64,000 nucleotides of DNA, taken from assembly GCA_001872625.1 (NCBI GenBank), contig MNXP01000050.1, forward strand, positions 106,419 through 170,418, read 5' to 3'. Of the stretch, positions 20,840-51,230 are shown one piece after another (the stretch's first letter is position 1; every line of letters starts with the position of its first letter). A program made the position numbers and the translations under genes. The notes below the pieces were generated by a model. The model did no database searches. It was not told where the DNA came from and saw only the letters and a list, made by a program, of their open reading frames with translations. Source of the DNA: Bacteroidetes bacterium CG2_30_33_31. Its GTDB lineage: Bacteria; Bacteroidota; Bacteroidia; Bacteroidales; UBA1556.

Positions 20840-21634
20840 TTGCTAATCAAAGATCTCTTAAGTAAAGGTAAAGAATTAAGGCTAAAAGCTTTAGAGATGT
20901 ATTTCAATGCTCACGCTGGTCATATTGGATCTACTTTGAGCTGTATTGACATTGTTGCATCAGTATTACTTTTGAGCAAAAATGAAGAAGATGAGTTTAT
21001 TTTATCAAAAGGACATGCTGCTGTTGCTTTATATGTAACCTTAAATAAAATTGGTAAAATTAGCGATGAAGAATTAGGAACTTATTATAAAAATGGTACA
21101 AAATTGCCAGCTCATCCTGCACCAAACTCAATTAATGGAGTAAGCTTCGCCACTGGCTCTCTGGGTCATGGGCTTCCTTTATCGGTTGGAATTGCAAAAT
21201 CTAAGAAACTTAAAAAAGATAAATCTACTGTTTTTGTACTTCTTTCTGATGGTGAAACAAATGAAGGCACAACATGGGAAGCATCACATTTTGCCAACAA
21301 ACATAAACTTGATAATCTGATAGTTATAATAGATAAAAATAAAATTCAGGGAATAGATTTCTCAGAAAATGTCATAGGCGAAAGTGCAAGTTTTAAAAAA
21401 CTTAGCGATTTGGGGTTTGAAGTAATTGAAATTAATGGACATAATGTAGTTCAAATAATAAACACTATTGAAGAAATAAGAACTCATTATAATGGTCGTC
21501 CAAAAATGATTATCGCCAATACCATCAAGGGCAAAGGAGTTTCATTTATGGAAAATACCGTCGATTGGCATTATTGGCCAATGAGTGAAGAACAATATAA
21601 TCAAGCAATTAATGAAATTTCAAATGCGTTTTAA
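20840..21634 (+). CDS. Transketolase N-terminal (ThDP-binding) subunit-like, TTG start
   Basis: HAGHIGSTLSCIDIVASVL; SKGHAAVALY; ATGSLGHGLPLSVGIA; SDGETNEGTTWEASHFANKHKLDNLIVIIDKNKIQG. Confidence 0.85.
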   Translation: MLIKDLLSKGKELRLKALEMYFNAHAGHIGSTLSCIDIVASVLLLSKNEEDEFILSKGHAAVALYVTLNKIGKISDEELGTYYKNGTKLPAHPAPNSINGVSFATGSLGHGLPLSVGIAKSKKLKKDKSTVFVLLSDGETNEGTTWEASHFANKHKLDNLIVIIDKNKIQGIDFSENVIGESASFKKLSDLGFEVIEINGHNVVQIINTIEEIRTHYNGRPKMIIANTIKGKGVSFMENTVDWHYWPMSEEQYNQAINEISNAF

Positions 21635-22647
21635 TGAATTCAAATAATAAAATAGATTCTAATTTGGAGTCAATGGTTAAAGCATTGCCAGGCCCGATTG
21701 CAATATTTGGTGCTGGTGGTTTTATCGGAATTAATTTGCTTAACCTATTGTTAAAATTCAGAAATGATGTTTATGGAATATCGCAAGATCATTTAAATAA
21801 TTGGAGATTCATTGCAAATAAAATTCAGCAAATCAACATTTTAACTGTCGATATTCTTCAACAGAATCAGATATTAAATTTCATTAATGAAATAAAGCCA
21901 CAAACAATTTTCAATCTTGCTGCTTATGGAGCATATTCAAAGCAAAACGAATATGATAAAATTTATCAGACAAATTTTGTAGCATCAATTGACTTAATTG
22001 AGGTTGCAAAAAAACAAGGATTTAAAGCGTTTGTACAAGCAGGAAGCAGTTCAGAATATGGAATTAATTCACAGCAACCCTCTGAGAATGATACACTTTT
22101 ACCTAACAGTCATTATGCTGTTAGCAAGGCTGCACTCTATCAAGCAATAAAATATTATGGCAAAATTGAAAAATTGCCAATCACAAATTTAAGGTTATAT
22201 TCAGTTTATGGTCCATGGGAAGAGCCCGACAGATTGCTACCCGTAGTAATTTCTAAAGCTCGTAAAGGAGAATTTCCCGCCTTGGTCAATCCTCAAGTTT
22301 CACGCGATTTTATTTATATTGATGATGTGTTAAAAGCTTTTATAATGGCGGCTCTAAAGATTAATTCCTTAAGTGGCGAAGCCTTAAACATTGGCAGTGG
22401 TAAAAAAACAACAATTTTAGTTTTAGCAAATACGATAAAAGAGATTTATAAAATAAAATCGAATCCCAATTTTGGCATAATGCCTAACAGAAAGTGGGAC
22501 TTAACAGATTGGTATTCAAATCCATCAAAAGCTGAAAATCTATTAAACTGGCATGCTGAAATACCTTTGAAAGATGGAATTCAAAAAGTAGGAAAATGGC
22601 AAGAAAATATTGATTTTGATAATGCTTATTGGAATTATGCAAAATAA
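21634..22647 (+). CDS. NAD-dependent epimerase/dehydratase (extended SDR)
   Basis: IAIFGAGGFIGINLLNLL; SSSEYG; YAVSKAA; RLYSVYGPWEEPDRLLP; TAATG coupling upstream. Confidence 0.85.
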   Translation: MNSNNKIDSNLESMVKALPGPIAIFGAGGFIGINLLNLLLKFRNDVYGISQDHLNNWRFIANKIQQINILTVDILQQNQILNFINEIKPQTIFNLAAYGAYSKQNEYDKIYQTNFVASIDLIEVAKKQGFKAFVQAGSSSEYGINSQQPSENDTLLPNSHYAVSKAALYQAIKYYGKIEKLPITNLRLYSVYGPWEEPDRLLPVVISKARKGEFPALVNPQVSRDFIYIDDVLKAFIMAALKINSLSGEALNIGSGKKTTILVLANTIKEIYKIKSNPNFGIMPNRKWDLTDWYSNPSKAENLLNWHAEIPLKDGIQKVGKWQENIDFDNAYWNYAK

Positions 22648-23333
22648 TGATTGACGTTTCTATAATATTGCCCATATATAATCAACAATCGCACATAGAA
22701 ATTATTTGCGAAAACTATATACAGCGTTTGGTAGAAGAGAATATTAATTATGAAATTTTATTTATAGTAAATGGAAGTCATGATGAAAGTTTTGAAAAAT
22801 GTCAAAATATGCAACAAAAATATGAGGGCATAAAAGCATTTAATATTTCAGAATCTGGCTGGGGAAGATCCGTAAAATATGGAATTGATAAAGCTGAAGG
22901 TAAACTGATCTGCTATACTAATTCAGCCAGAACAAATATTAAAGATATAATAACCTGCATAAAATACTCAAATATAGACTTCAAAACCGTTGTGAAAAGC
23001 AATCGAATAATACGCGAAAATTTTCTTCGCCGCTTGGGCTCAGTTATATATAACTTCGAAAACAGATATTTTTTTAATACTGCTATTTGGGATGTTAATG
23101 CAACACCTAAGGTTTTTCCAAAAGATATTATAAAATCATTTAATATATTAAGTTTCAATGATTTAATTGATGCCGAATTGATGGCAAGATGCCGAAAACT
23201 AAACATAACTACTATTGAAGTTCCAATTTATATGACAGAAAGAATTTCAGGAAAAAGCACAACAAATATTATGTCAGCCCTGAAAATGTATACTGGTTTG
23301 ATTAGCCTAAAAAGAAAACTCGACCATGAATAA
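22647..23333 (+). CDS. Glycosyltransferase family 2
   Basis: MIDVSIILPIYNQQSHIEIICENYIQRL; start moved to ATG at 22647 (TAATG overlap). Confidence 0.75.
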   Translation: MIDVSIILPIYNQQSHIEIICENYIQRLVEENINYEILFIVNGSHDESFEKCQNMQQKYEGIKAFNISESGWGRSVKYGIDKAEGKLICYTNSARTNIKDIITCIKYSNIDFKTVVKSNRIIRENFLRRLGSVIYNFENRYFFNTAIWDVNATPKVFPKDIIKSFNILSFNDLIDAELMARCRKLNITTIEVPIYMTERISGKSTTNIMSALKMYTGLISLKRKLDHE

Positions 23334-24492
23334 AACTGAATTATTTGAATATCAAAATTTGCTGTTTAGAAATCCTCAGGATATAGCTGGAGTTGATATT
23401 CACAACAATTCTGTATTATCAAAATCGCTAAAGTATAATTGCGATGATGGCTTTATGAAATTACTCAACTCATTAAATATCACACTTTTAATAAGTCGAG
23501 AATACGAACATCTTTTACTTGGTATAAGTTCTGACGGTGAAAATTTAAAACAAACATATTATCCATTGGCACATCCATCAGGAATAGCAGTTGATAATAA
23601 TAATAATACTATTTATGTAGCCTCGACACGTAATCCAAACAAAATTGTTGAATTCAAAGTAGTTTCCGAATATTCTCAAAGAATAGAAGATAAAGCCCAC
23701 GATTTGACAACCAATATTTTTATGCCATCGAGGGAGAAATATTTTCCAGGTTCATACTATTTCCACGACTTAGCTTTTATTGGAGCTAAACTTTTTGGAA
23801 ATTCTGTAGGTCAAAATGCAGTAATTGAAATAGATATGAATTCATTTCTTACAGATGAAATTATTTGGCAGCCTAATGTTTGTACAACAGATGCAAGAAA
23901 AATTACCGAAGGAAACTACCTTCAACTAAATTCTATTGCTGCTGGAACTTCACTTCAAAATTCGTATTTTTCTGCCTCCACATTTATTGTCGGAAAAAGT
24001 CGACCAGGTCAAAAAAACTTCAAAGTTGATAATAAAGGAGTTATTTTTTCTGGCGATGGAAATATTTTTGCAAGTGGGCTCACCAGACCACATTCTGCGC
24101 GAATTCATAAAGATAAAATATGGATAAATAATAGTGGATATGGAAGTTTTGGCTACATTAAAAATGGCAAATATATTAGCTTCGCCACATTACCTGGCTG
24201 GACTCGAGGAATGCATTTTGTTAATAATGTAGTCTTCATAGGAGTTAGTCGAGTTTTGCCAAGATTCGAAAATTATGCCCCAGGATTAAAAGACATTAAC
24301 TCAATATCAGCAATTTTTGCTTTTGATACTATTAAAGGAAATATTTTGGGGAAAATTGAGTTTCCTTTTGGAAATCAAATTTTTTCAATTGAATCTATCA
24401 ACAAAAATATTTCACAAGGATTTGTTTATCAAGATTTAAAGAACAAAACCAAAAAAATTAAATCACATTTTTACAAATATAAATTCAAATAA
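23326..24492 (+). CDS. TIGR03032/DUF4915-like beta-propeller protein
   Basis: LLISREYEHLLLGIS; SGLTRPHSARIHKDKIWINNSGYGSFGYI; LPGWTRGMHFVNNVVFIGVSRVLP. Confidence 0.65.
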   Translation: MNKTELFEYQNLLFRNPQDIAGVDIHNNSVLSKSLKYNCDDGFMKLLNSLNITLLISREYEHLLLGISSDGENLKQTYYPLAHPSGIAVDNNNNTIYVASTRNPNKIVEFKVVSEYSQRIEDKAHDLTTNIFMPSREKYFPGSYYFHDLAFIGAKLFGNSVGQNAVIEIDMNSFLTDEIIWQPNVCTTDARKITEGNYLQLNSIAAGTSLQNSYFSASTFIVGKSRPGQKNFKVDNKGVIFSGDGNIFASGLTRPHSARIHKDKIWINNSGYGSFGYIKNGKYISFATLPGWTRGMHFVNNVVFIGVSRVLPRFENYAPGLKDINSISAIFAFDTIKGNILGKIEFPFGNQIFSIESINKNISQGFVYQDLKNKTKKIKSHFYKYKFK

Positions 24493-25434
24493 ATGTCAGC
24501 GAATAAATTTAAATTGCTTATGCTTTCGGCTATGTACGAAAATGGTGGAAATACCACACACCGCTATCTCGATGGTCATCCAGAAATGTTTGTCTATCCT
24601 TTTGAATCGCAGATAGGAACAAAATATGTGCAAGATAAATTCACTTCCATGTTTCCTGTAAAATATCGTTGGCCCTATTTTCCTGAACATCTGTCGATAG
24701 AAGAAATATATTATTCCATAATTGATGAAGAAGCAAAAATTAGAGCAAGAACTCCTTTTGTCAGCAAGTTTCGAAATGCCGAATTTGATATGGATGATGA
24801 AGAAAGAAAAAGTATTTTTACAAAAATTGTTGAGAAAACAGGAAACAAAACAAGAGCTACAATTATGGAAGGCTTCTTTAGAGCAACTTTTAATGCTTGG
24901 AAAAATTATCAACACACTGGAAATGAAAAAGTTTGGGTGGGTTATAGTCCCATAATTGGAGTGGATGGTGAAGCAATAATAAATGAGTTAAATGGAAATG
25001 GATATATATTACATATAATGAGAAATCCATTTAGCTGCTATGCTGAAACGAAAAAAAGACCAGTTCCTTTAAGCCTCGATCATTATATTAACGCTTGGGT
25101 AAATAATCAATATTATGCTCGATTTTTATCAATGAAATATCCCAATAATTTTTTCTTTATTAAATATGAAGATATTATTGTTGATTCAAAAAAAACCCTT
25201 GGTTCAGTGCTCGAGAAAATTGGTATACAATCCAATGATTCTTTGTTAAGTCCAAGTTGGAATGGCAAAGCGCTTAAAGAAGTTTATCCATGGGGAACAG
25301 TAAGAATTCCAACTCCCGAAGTTAATATTAATACAGCTAAAGAGCTGACTAAAAACGAAATAAGCGAAATATTTATGAGGGCAGAAATGTTTTTAAAAGA
25401 ATTTGATTATTTAAATATATATAAACAGCTATAA
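24493..25434 (+). CDS. Sulfotransferase-like protein
   Basis: N-term MLSAMYENGGNTTHRYLDGHPEMFVYPFES; ILHIMRNPFSCYAETKKRPV; FFFIKYEDIIVDSKKTLGSVLEKIGI. Confidence 0.7.
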   Translation: MSANKFKLLMLSAMYENGGNTTHRYLDGHPEMFVYPFESQIGTKYVQDKFTSMFPVKYRWPYFPEHLSIEEIYYSIIDEEAKIRARTPFVSKFRNAEFDMDDEERKSIFTKIVEKTGNKTRATIMEGFFRATFNAWKNYQHTGNEKVWVGYSPIIGVDGEAIINELNGNGYILHIMRNPFSCYAETKKRPVPLSLDHYINAWVNNQYYARFLSMKYPNNFFFIKYEDIIVDSKKTLGSVLEKIGIQSNDSLLSPSWNGKALKEVYPWGTVRIPTPEVNINTAKELTKNEISEIFMRAEMFLKEFDYLNIYKQL

Positions 25435-25436
25435 TT

Positions 25437-25472
25437 AAAAGCCTTGGTATTAAAAATATCAAGGCTTTTTTT
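25437..25472. terminator. Bidirectional intrinsic terminator
   Basis: AAAAGCCTTGGTAT-TAAAA-ATATCAAGGCTTTTTTTT between convergent genes. Confidence 0.85.
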
Positions 25473-25474
25473 TG

Positions 25475-26341
25475 TTATTTTCTACGATATTTGAATCGCC
25501 TTTTACCACCTTTAAATATTTGTTTACTCTTTCTGCTATATTTTCTTGTATTGATTGAAGTGTAACTTCTTATGTTATAACTTGGGGAATGCCTTTTGAA
25601 AGATGAAAATCTTGATGGTGAAAAATAATAATCCATGCCTAAAGTTATGGCACCAAAACCATCCCAAAAAGCTATATTACTGACAGTTGCATCTAATTTA
25701 TCGGTATTGATAGGGTGAAGCGCTATTTCGCCATAGAAACCGAAATTCGGATTAATTACTACTTTAAGACCTAAACCAATAGGCATAACTGTTTCCGACA
25801 TAGGCACATATTTGCCACCCGCAACTTTGGGTTTTCCAAATCCATTAGTTCCAATAAGTTTTTCAGAAGTTGCATCGTACTTCCATGTACGAGATTCGGT
25901 CATTCCTAAACCAACAAATCCATAGAAAACTACTGGGCGGTAGCGATCAATGCCCCAAAATATATTTGTAAAATTCATTGTTGCTACCAATGAGTATTCG
26001 AAAAGTTTAGCATCGAAATATTGATTTATAGAACCTTTAGAGCCTTTTAATTTGGTGTATAAAAGATTTCCTCTTACGCCAAAATATGGGCCTATGGATT
26101 TTTCGAGATTAAAACCAATTCCCGATTTCCTATCTTCATAAAAATACTTACTAAATGGTGTGTAATAAACAATGCTATTTGCTCTTTCGGTAAAATCACC
26201 GTGAAATAAAGAAGAATTATAACCTAAACTTGCAGACCAATTAAAATTACCTAAAAACCATTGAGCATATAGTTTTGTATTAGAAATTAAAACTAAAAGT
26301 ATTACTAAAGTAAAATTATAAATGTATTTATATTGCTTCAT
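25475..26341 (-). CDS. Outer-membrane beta-barrel protein, paralog A, basic C-terminal tail
   Basis: Signal peptide; barrel-like strands; strongly similar to next ORF; tail KYSRKSKQIFKGGKRRFKYRRK. Confidence 0.7.
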   Translation of the reverse strand: MKQYKYIYNFTLVILLVLISNTKLYAQWFLGNFNWSASLGYNSSLFHGDFTERANSIVYYTPFSKYFYEDRKSGIGFNLEKSIGPYFGVRGNLLYTKLKGSKGSINQYFDAKLFEYSLVATMNFTNIFWGIDRYRPVVFYGFVGLGMTESRTWKYDATSEKLIGTNGFGKPKVAGGKYVPMSETVMPIGLGLKVVINPNFGFYGEIALHPINTDKLDATVSNIAFWDGFGAITLGMDYYFSPSRFSSFKRHSPSYNIRSYTSINTRKYSRKSKQIFKGGKRRFKYRRK

Positions 26342-26380: not shown

Positions 26381-27259
26381 TTATCTACGCCGTCTTTTTG
26401 TCTTATGTCTATGCTTGCTGGCTTTATTATATGCTTTAGTTTTCATGACAACATGCTTTCTTTTATTAAATTCTTTGATAGCAGGATCTGTGCTTTTGCC
26501 ATTATATCTTGGATTTCTATTAATAATTTGCCAATGATCTGGCAAGGTAAAATTATAATCAACTCCCACTGAGATTAAACCGTAGCCTTCCATTTTTGCA
26601 GCATTTGATATTGTAGCATCAAGTTTATCAGTTCTTATTGGGTGAAGCGACACTTCAGCATTGAGTGCAAATTGCTTAGAAATATTATATCGAAATCCTA
26701 AACCTAATGGCACCACAGTTTCTGTCATAGGAACATACTTTCCGCCCTCCTTTTTTGGAACTCCAAAACCATTGGTGCCAATGATTTTACCAGTATTCAT
26801 ACTATATTTCCAAGTCCTTGATTCAGTAAAACCTATGCCAACATATCCATAAATCGACCAATCTCGATATCGGTCATACCCAATAAATAAGTTAGTAAAA
26901 TCAACAGTTCCATTTAAACTATATTCAAAAAGATGTGCATTAAAATATGCTTTTTCAGACTCTTTAGTGCTTTTTATATTGCCATAAGATATGAATCCCT
27001 TTACCCCAAAATATATGTTTATTTTTTTTTCAAGAGTATAGCTTAACATCGCTTGTCGATCCTGATAGAAGAATTTGCTAAAAGGAGTATTGCTAAAAAA
27101 CCTATTTGATTTGTCTGTAAAATCACCATAAAAAGTTGTAGCTCCGATATTTATACTCGTCAACCACTCTTCAGAAAGGAAAAATGTCCTCTGAGAATTG
27201 GAGGTTAAAAATATCATTACCGACAAAAATGTTAAAATTAAAAATCTTTTCATTTGCAT
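26381..27259 (-). CDS. Outer-membrane beta-barrel protein, paralog B, basic C-terminal tail
   Basis: Shares HLFEYSL, ESRTWKY, IGTNGFG.PK..GGKYVPM.ETV, LHPI.TDKLDAT.SN with paralog A; tail KASKHRHKTKRRRR. Confidence 0.7.
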   Translation of the reverse strand: MQMKRFLILTFLSVMIFLTSNSQRTFFLSEEWLTSINIGATTFYGDFTDKSNRFFSNTPFSKFFYQDRQAMLSYTLEKKINIYFGVKGFISYGNIKSTKESEKAYFNAHLFEYSLNGTVDFTNLFIGYDRYRDWSIYGYVGIGFTESRTWKYSMNTGKIIGTNGFGVPKKEGGKYVPMTETVVPLGLGFRYNISKQFALNAEVSLHPIRTDKLDATISNAAKMEGYGLISVGVDYNFTLPDHWQIINRNPRYNGKSTDPAIKEFNKRKHVVMKTKAYNKASKHRHKTKRRRR

Positions 27260-50019: not shown

Positions 50020-50574
50020 ATGTTAAATGGAAAAAAAATATTGATTGGTATTTCAGCAGGCATCGCAGCCTACAAAATACCATATCTGATAAGGTTGCTT
50101 AAAAAATCGAATGCAGAGGTTCAAATAATTGCATCTCCAAACTCCCTTAACTTTGTAACTCCTTTAACCCTAAGTGTATTATCCGAAAATCCAGTAATTG
50201 TAGAGCCTTTCAACAAAGAAACTGGAAAATGGAATAGCCATATTGAATTGGCTAATTGGGCTGATTTAATACTTATTGCTCCAGCCACGGCAAATACTTT
50301 AGCAAAAATGGCAAATGGAATTGCAGACAACTTGCTTATTGCCACCTATTTATCTGCAAGAACAAAAGTTTTTATTGCTCCCACAATGGATCTTGATATG
50401 TATCATCATCCTTCTACTATCGCTAATATTGCCAAGCTTAAAAGCTATGGTCATGAAATTATAGAGCCAAACGTTGGAGAATTAGCAAGCGGTCTGCAAG
50501 GCGAAGGAAGAATGAGAGAGCCAGAGGAAATTTTTGCTGTCATAGAAAATTTTTTAAAAAAAAAAGCCCATTAA
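50020..50574 (+). CDS. coaBC: Phosphopantothenoylcysteine decarboxylase part of CoaBC (CoaC), ends at frameshift
   Basis: LNGKKILIGISAGIAAYKIPYLIRLLKK; PATANTLAKMANGIADNLL; APTMDLDMYHHP. In-frame stop right after A10 run. Confidence 0.87.
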   Translation: MLNGKKILIGISAGIAAYKIPYLIRLLKKSNAEVQIIASPNSLNFVTPLTLSVLSENPVIVEPFNKETGKWNSHIELANWADLILIAPATANTLAKMANGIADNLLIATYLSARTKVFIAPTMDLDMYHHPSTIANIAKLKSYGHEIIEPNVGELASGLQGEGRMREPEEIFAVIENFLKKKAH

Positions 50575-51230
50575 ATAATAAAAAGATTCTTATAAGTGCA
50601 GGGCCAACCTATGAATATATCGACCCTGTAAGGTTTCTTGGAAATTTTGCATCTGGGCTTATGGGTTTTGAACTCGCCAAAAAATGTGCTGAATCTGGTG
50701 CATCGGTAATCTTAATTTCTGGACCTACTGTTTATAATACTGATCATCAAAATATTAAGCAAATTAATATTTTATCTGCCGATGAAATGTATAATGAGTG
50801 CATGAAATATTTCCATGAAATGGATATTACAATAATGGCAGCAGCAATAGCTGATTTCACTCCAAAACATAAATCCTTGATAAAGATAAAGAAAAACAAT
50901 AATTCACCAATAATTGAGTTAATTCCAACTAAAGATGTTCTTTATAATTTGGGGAAAATCAAAACACAAAATCAAATTTTAGTCGGTTTTGCTCTTGAAA
51001 CCAATGATGAAATTGAAAATGCAAAATCTAAATTAAAGAAAAAAAATCTTGATTTTATAGTCTTGAATTCTTTAAATGATAAAGGTGCTGGCTTTGGGGG
51101 TTCAACAAATAAAGTTACTTTTATTGATAGAGACGATACATTAAAAGAGTATAAATTGAAACCAAAAACAGAAGTTGCAGATGATATAATAGAGCATATA
51201 ATTGAAATTCAAAAGCTTAAAATTAAATAA
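50568..51230 (+). CDS. coaBC: Phosphopantothenate--cysteine ligase part of CoaBC (CoaB), shifted frame
   Basis: Frame upstream of track ATG (50661) reads PLNNKKILISAGPTYEYIDPVRFLGNFASGLMGFELAKKCAESGASVILISGPT; later AAAIADFTP, GFALETND. Confidence 0.85.
   Translation, partial: PLNNKKILISAGPTYEYIDPVRFLGNFASGLMGFELAKKCAESGASVILISGPTVYNTDHQNIKQINILSADEMYNECMKYFHEMDITIMAAAIADFTPKHKSLIKIKKNNNSPIIELIPTKDVLYNLGKIKTQNQILVGFALETNDEIENAKSKLKKKNLDFIVLNSLNDKGAGFGGSTNKVTFIDRDDTLKEYKLKPKTEVADDIIEHIIEIQKLKIK

Follow-up and report, generated by a model that had tools for sequence, protein, structure and literature searches.

What does an operon that couples one half of a transketolase to sugar-modifying and glycosyltransferase-like genes make, and where is the other half of the enzyme? 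The question is raised by five genes in a 64,000-nucleotide stretch of contig MNXP01000050.1 (positions 106,419 to 170,418, forward strand) from Bacteroidetes bacterium CG2_30_33_31 (genome G000), hereafter the window. They encode the N-terminal half of a split transketolase (TktN), a short-chain dehydrogenase/reductase (SDR), a family 2 glycosyltransferase-like protein (GT2), a DUF4915/TIGR03032-like beta-propeller and a protein with a sulfotransferase fold (ST, or ORF5). An earlier note on this DNA read them as the best candidate there for an undescribed pathway, with an orphan TktN, making and possibly sulfating an unusual sugar. We find that the operon is part of a widely distributed six-gene cassette whose sixth gene, the C-terminal transketolase half (TktC), lies elsewhere in this genome. 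We estimate a probability of about 0.5 that this is a two-module carbohydrate cassette, in which a ketol-modified activated sugar is made and then transferred.

A six-gene cassette in at least 14 phyla

Across 85,462 species, each represented by a single genome, a scan with an ST alignment recovered 126 ST relatives, from which we kept 80 loci; the scan was seeded with the ST motifs MYENGGN and THR[FY]LDGH, so the constancy of exactly these motifs is partly selected. All six genes (TktN, TktC, GT2, DUF4915, ST and SDR) are present at 56 of the 80 loci; where 6 kb or more is available on both sides of ST (50 loci), 40 have the full set. This linkage upholds the view that the five genes work together in sugar chemistry as a conserved unit, and neighborhood conservation extends well past one or two of them. 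According to the database records, the loci span at least 14 phyla: Bacteroidota, Patescibacteria, Omnitrophota, WPS-2, Acidobacteriota, Cyanobacteriota with Melainabacteria, Chloroflexota, Actinomycetota, Planctomycetota, Armatimonadota, Myxococcota, Elusimicrobiota, Pseudomonadota and Desulfobacterota. Most carriers are metagenome assemblies; named strains include Mesorhizobium hawassense AC99b, Solirubrobacter and Conexibacter CPCC strains, and Spirulina sp. CCY15215.

The most frequent gene order is TktN-TktC-GT2-DUF4915-ST-SDR (34 loci), with a circular permutation of it at six more, and in the Bacteroidota arrangement SDR stands ahead of GT2 and TktC comes second or last. Within an even sample of 299 genomes of the phylum, ST was found in one, the window's own, so the cassette is rare and patchy there. 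The Mesorhizobium ST had no match in the plasmid collection. Many cassettes stand alone, the window's included, and some lie in polysaccharide-type surroundings (L121). A flank scan for other recurrent genes returned chiefly the six families and antisense artefacts. Two loci carry an additional gene between TktC and GT2 (L108:6538-8061 and L121:6607-8052), the start of which reads like a B12-binding radical SAM protein.

The missing transketolase half lies at a second locus

A family search of the genome (2.87 Mb in 76 contigs, 94.6% complete) found four proteins with a transketolase pyrimidine domain. Judged from their lengths and matches, these comprise a full transketolase, a DXS-type protein, a dehydrogenase E1 beta-type protein and an unlinked, 305-residue TktC (G000:C51:26092-27009). 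The earlier statement that the window holds no TktC is thus borne out. TktN is nevertheless no orphan, and we rejected the idea that TktC is absent from the genome, because a cassette-type copy is encoded at this distant locus. A tree of 35 TktCs joins the C51 protein to its counterpart in congener G006 (support 99/97) within a clade of 15 rows (100/100), the remaining members of which are all drawn from cassette loci; split TktCs that other members of the genus and order encode are placed outside this clade.

Two related genomes have comparable arrangements. G006 keeps the five-gene operon (identities of 71% for TktN, 64% for SDR, 65% for GT2, 49% for DUF4915 and 77% for ST) and, on a separate contig as in G000, a set comprising TktC, a second GT2, a DUF2304 gene and a 128-residue protein. 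In G036, from the same order, the first locus is without ST, which instead directly precedes TktC at the second locus, and this swap ties the two loci together. Because TktC is linked to the cassette in other genomes, we count the C51 gene as the sixth member of the unit, completing the predicted pathway. The earlier note had set a distant TktC against the existence of such a unit; the gene does exist on C51, but it completes the pathway rather than removing the unit.

Downstream of TktC on C51 come genes for a DPM-like GT2, a DUF2304 protein and the 128-residue protein. Such a trio follows the displaced TktC in three Bacteroidota genomes: its GT2 is DPM-like and has an intact DGD motif, its second member is a DUF2304 protein, and its third, of 128-147 residues, belongs to no known family. 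At L068, 7 kb separate the trio from the cassette, and the two are on opposite strands. The trio may extend the pathway specifically in Bacteroidota. In G006, an open reading frame (ORF) of repeated SLNNFPLKQGLR lies some 4 kb beyond the second locus on its downstream side (L064:15479-18202), with a Cas1-like fragment nearby; judged from its repeats, it looks like a translated CRISPR array.

Split loci and correlated distances suggest two modules

Four Melainabacteria divide the cassette into a GT2-DUF4915-ST locus and a TktC-SDR locus, with TktN visible in three. TktC lies between TktN and SDR in G378, G381 and G379; in G353 it is cut by the contig end, with SDR after it. Melainabacteria loci showing GT2-DUF4915-ST alone have a cassette-type TktC elsewhere in the genome, with about 58% identity to that of L088. 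A GT2 copy adjoins TktC in G371 (Spirulinaceae), and the transketolase matches of G380 (L096) and L075 are distant ones only.

The pairwise distances of the six proteins all correlate, and for no pair did any of 300 permutations reach the observed value, in a comparison that does not control for host ancestry. Within-module correlations are among the highest (TktN-TktC 0.91, TktC-SDR 0.78, GT2-ST 0.79 and DUF4915-ST 0.79), and the cross-module pair TktN-GT2 (0.73) equals GT2-DUF4915. Together, the split loci and the distance correlations suggest a putative sugar-making module (TktN, TktC and SDR) and a putative transfer module (GT2, DUF4915 and ST).

Catalytic motifs of the putative sugar-making module are kept, and positions aligned with substrate-contacting residues are altered

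The best match of TktN in the Protein Data Bank (PDB) is 6yak, the N-terminal component of a split transketolase (2.3e-50), and that of TktC is 6yaj (4.7e-25). The SDxExNEGxxWEA motif of TktN, which binds thiamine diphosphate (ThDP) and Mg, and the catalytic Glu of TktC (AEQ) are kept across members, and since the catalytic motifs are kept in both halves, the split transketolase should be active. When aligned to 6yaj, the TktC stretch 'IIVGNGGGYGYGIMGSSHHAL' is without the H and ED of 'THAGLTVGEDGASH', positions that we take to be the substrate-contacting H461 and D469 of E. coli transketolase. These altered positions suggest that the substrate of TktN/TktC is unusual. The SDR has the Ser-Tyr-Lys pattern (GSSSEYG and YxxxK), with motifs kept across cassette members, and its nearest solved relatives are UDP-sugar 4-epimerases and 4,6-dehydratases (1e-22 to 1e-26).

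An ArnC-like GT2, a conserved propeller and membrane neighbors

The GT2 profile matches the ArnC structure 9hwj over its full length (1.9e-14; profile positions 4-215 of 231). At the site where a DxD motif is expected, 71 of 72 sequences read NxART, the exception being a paralog at L071. The propeller was modeled with a mean pLDDT of 92.5, its structure matches are propellers, and 44 columns are invariant among 60 sequences; this invariance suggests an active site, so the protein is probably an enzyme, not a passive scaffold. Cassette propellers score 140-190 bits against DUF4915, versus 430-460 for core DUF4915 proteins.

A long multi-pass membrane ORF lies in the cassette or within 1.5 kb of it at 47 of 70 loci; counted per side, such ORFs occur at 50 of 122 sides, versus 5 of 60 in a control band 4-5.5 kb away. 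Among 20 of them scanned with Pfam, three matched YfhO, one DUF6044 and three tetratricopeptide repeats only. By analogy with three-component glycosylation systems (PMC11127046), a role as GT-C glycosyltransferases is plausible for these neighbors.

ORF5 has a sulfotransferase fold and probably does not add sulfate

Sulfotransfer_3 is matched by 62 of 65 ST members. The ST model (pLDDT 94.8) has as its best PDB matches by Foldseek only sulfotransferases (E 2.5e-7, TM about 0.45-0.56); by sequence, a PDB search with the single ST found no match, and one with a profile found weak C-terminal matches only. To compare the loop that would bind 3'-phosphoadenosine 5'-phosphosulfate (PAPS), we used conservation within the family together with a partial alignment to known sulfotransferases. 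None of 81 members has Lys or Arg in residues 9-23, the expected phosphosulfate-loop region, although the scan seeds overlap this loop and its constancy is partly selected; the window's own ST and both close relatives also lack a basic residue here. The loop reads MYENGGNTT, with E16-N17-G18-G19-N20 invariant. Position 185, presumably the 3'-phosphate site where Ser is usual, is D or E, and E38 is invariant.

We found no credible adenosine 5'-phosphosulfate (APS) kinase in G000 or G006, both more than 94% complete, where the only matches (about 5e-4) lie inside longer frames. Eight further carriers gave no match either, and a clear APS kinase is present in 27 of the 42 carriers searched, a set in which the metagenome-assembled genomes reached through their loci have no stated completeness. 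ST is the sole Sulfotransfer_3 protein in G000 and in G006. G000 encodes a CysD-type protein, an adjoining CysN-type protein and a second PF01507 protein, with no cysC beside cysD-cysN; in G036, an APS kinase adjoins cysD. The argument from APS kinase is consequently strong for the window's genus and weaker for the ST family as a whole, because G036 has the enzyme. Judged by these residues, the ST-like protein probably does not add sulfate, and the sulfation step proposed in the earlier note is not sustained: the usual PAPS-binding residues are missing, and G000 and its congener lack APS kinase. The cysD-cysN genes of G000 (contig C3, L179:4715-10056) lie between nucleotide-sugar epimerase-like and dehydrogenase-like genes, an odd setting for sulfate assimilation.

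A proposed pathway and its alternatives

From the linkage, TktC assignment, modular splits, folds, missing motifs and absence of APS kinase in two genomes, all computed here, we infer the following substrates, reactions, module functions, and carrier and membrane steps. The split transketolase would move a two-carbon ketol from a ketose phosphate to a non-standard acceptor, probably a keto or aldehydo sugar nucleotide and not the usual aldose phosphates. The SDR would either prepare this acceptor or reduce or epimerize the product, and the first module would thus yield a ketol-branched or ketol-extended activated sugar. GT2 would then hand the sugar to a carrier, plausibly polyprenyl phosphate as with ArnC/DPM1, and the propeller and the ST-fold protein would process or pass on its product. 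Where present, as is often the case, the neighboring multi-pass protein may finish transfer outside the membrane. In G000, the TktC contributing to the first step would have moved to C51, beside the second GT2 and the DUF2304 gene.

Several observations weigh against this scheme. The cassette has no sugar-nucleotide-forming dehydratase, so any keto sugar would need to be supplied by the SDR or by another source. Without the DxD metal-binding motif, GT2 may not be a conventional transferase. Thirteen of the 20 scanned multi-pass ORFs match no Pfam family, and no multi-pass ORF adjoins the cassette in the window. Cassette TktCs form two clades, the C51 type and a larger one from other phyla, a pattern that may reflect either a single replacement of TktC or its early divergence. 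The distance correlations also retain whatever host ancestry contributes. A bolder version, which we hold only tentatively, is a horizontally spread cassette in which the split transketolase acts on a sugar nucleotide to build a novel ketol-branched sugar, and two repurposed enzymes, a DxD-less GT2 and a PAPS-free ST-fold protein, transfer this sugar together with a propeller enzyme of new function; the ST-fold protein would then perform another group transfer or use a nucleotide without a 3'-phosphate.

The chemistry of the two-module scheme is compatible with another end point, a diffusible metabolite or glycolipid in place of a surface glycan. The many cassettes outside large polysaccharide clusters, the window's among them, fit such a product, as does the proposal of such split transketolases for nucleoside antibiotics (PMC12247030); an ArnC-like GT2 and adjacent multi-pass ORFs instead indicate a membrane-bound carrier, and some loci lie in polysaccharide-type surroundings (L121), so we regard this end point as possible but doubtful. 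An ordinary role for TktN/TktC is unlikely; in that case the enzyme would provide a phosphorylated ketose or aldose (e.g., sedoheptulose 7-phosphate) as precursor of a heptose- or pentose-type sugar, and the SDR and GT2 would act conventionally. Both catalytic motifs are kept and the closest solved relative is an ordinary split transketolase, but the genome already encodes a full-length transketolase, cassette TktC departs from 6yaj at the TH...ED residues, and the cassette has no heptose-pathway phosphatase, isomerase or nucleotidyltransferase.

We give similarly little weight to a cassette that makes an unusual sugar and uses ORF5 as a PAPS-dependent sulfotransferase on that sugar or its glycan. 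The fold, the weak family match, the APS kinases of most carriers searched and the invariant E38, which could be a catalytic base, would all fit; the loop without Lys or Arg in 81 of 81 members, the acidic residue at position 185, the lack of APS kinase in G000 and G006 (and of an adjoining cysC in G000) and the presence of no other Sulfotransfer_3 protein in either genome argue against it. Transketolase halves, SDRs and GT2s are all common, and the five genes could in principle be a chance grouping of common sugar genes; we rejected this explanation, to which we assign almost no probability, since the linkage recurs in at least 14 phyla, the protein distances correlate and the partner gene is encoded at another locus. 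A two-module cassette that makes and transfers a ketol-modified sugar is the reading we prefer.

The operon in the window and its surroundings

Reading frames, couplings (two TAATG junctions, one 8-nt overlap and one 0-nt gap) and terminator are all as the earlier note gave them (Table 1). TktN starts at a TTG codon, and the ortholog at L031 begins at the identical residue with GTG. The window's Sulfotransfer_3 match falls under the curated Pfam cut-off. Its propeller scores 143.6 against DUF4915, above the cut-off of 35, and 92.8 (2e-26) against TIGR03032, below the cut-off of 251.5. The terminator stem occupies 25437-25469 and is followed by a T-rich tail; the scanned region has five terminator-like sites, versus 1.9 +/- 1.4 in shuffles.

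Table 1. Features of the cassette in the window (window coordinates) and of the gene trio beside displaced TktC genes
Feature	Position	Strand	Evidence
TktN, N-terminal (ThDP/Mg-binding) half of split transketolase	20840..21634	+	Pfam Transketolase_N 4.8e-32
Extended SDR, NAD-dependent epimerase/dehydratase/reductase type	21634..22647	+	Pfam Epimerase 9.5e-46
GT2-family protein, ArnC/DPM-like	22647..23333	+	Pfam Glycos_transf_2 3.2e-9
DUF4915/TIGR03032-like beta-propeller	23326..24492	+	DUF4915 1e-41
Sulfotransferase-fold protein (ST-like, ORF5)	24493..25434	+	Pfam Sulfotransfer_3 4.1e-5
Intrinsic-terminator-like hairpin at operon end	25437..25472	+	15-pair stem and T tail
DPM-like GT2/DUF2304/small-protein trio	G000:C51 = L008:13007-14479; L064:10323-11828; L065:10856-12346		

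In the list of ORFs, the cassette's neighbors are housekeeping or unrelated genes, with rho upstream. The operon is therefore small and free-standing, outside any polysaccharide cluster, and we rejected an ordinary lipopolysaccharide cluster around it. GC content gives no sign of a foreign origin for the operon. Beyond the terminator, a paralogous outer-membrane-type pair lies opposite the cassette on the minus strand (25475-26341 and 26381-27259). Farther along the window, a CoaBC-like (Dfp) protein is divided between two ORFs, one for each half, with 86 nt between them (50020-50574 and 50661-51230), representing either a split gene or an assembly frameshift.

Significance and comparison with known systems

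No paper in the open literature searched, a scope outside which most subscription journals fall, mentions TIGR03032 or DUF4915 or describes the combination of genes in the cassette. Within that scope, the earlier claim of an undescribed pathway stands, and we provisionally regard the six-gene pathway as undescribed. That so compact a gene set is shared by Bacteroidota, Melainabacteria, Chloroflexota, Planctomycetota, Actinomycetota and other groups points to a widely useful glycan or metabolite that is still unnamed. The case also illustrates that a gene which seems to lack its partner, when a single window is considered, may belong to a pathway whose parts are dispersed in the genome.

The best PDB match for both cassette halves is the split transketolase of Carboxydothermus hydrogenoformans (6yaj and 6yak), from which cassette TktC differs in residues of the substrate region; to our knowledge, that enzyme is not linked to any glycan cassette. 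The cassette ST has the overall fold of PAPS-dependent sulfotransferases (TPST and the olefin synthase and curacin sulfotransferase domains) but differs from them in its non-basic loop region and altered 3'-phosphate motif, and two carriers have no APS kinase. This ST-fold family has apparently left PAPS chemistry, which calls for caution in annotating its members with sulfation. Gtr-type three-component periplasmic glycosylation, as in the GT136 system, combines a polyprenyl-phosphate sugar synthase, a flippase and a multi-pass GT-C (PMC11127046). The cassette resembles such systems and ArnC in its ArnC-like GT2 and often adjoining multi-pass ORF, and is unlike Gtr-type systems in having a GT2 without DxD, no conserved flippase and, in the window, no GtrA-like partner.

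Carbon-carbon bond formation on sugars provides the closest parallels to the proposed first module. YerE branches CDP-keto sugars (yersiniose and erwiniose; PMC12247030); like the reaction that we propose, this depends on ThDP and forms a carbon-carbon bond on a keto sugar nucleotide that serves a surface glycan, but YerE uses pyruvate and belongs to the decarboxylase superfamily, whereas the cassette enzyme is a transketolase. The nearest precedent concerns the branched sugars of miharamycin and amipurimycin, for which a split transketolase has been proposed, and not demonstrated, to branch a keto sugar (PMC12247030, section 2.3). As in the cassette, separate TktN and TktC genes there accompany an oxidoreductase in a sugar pathway. 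Unlike the cassette, these are Streptomyces nucleoside-antibiotic clusters, compared here by their description only, and that section describes no unit of DUF4915, ST-like protein and ArnC-like GT2 in them. Split-transketolase sugar pathways are thus a known proposal, whereas we know of no earlier account of the transfer module or of so broad a distribution. The cassette makes the sugar branching by split transketolases that was proposed for miharamycin directly testable.

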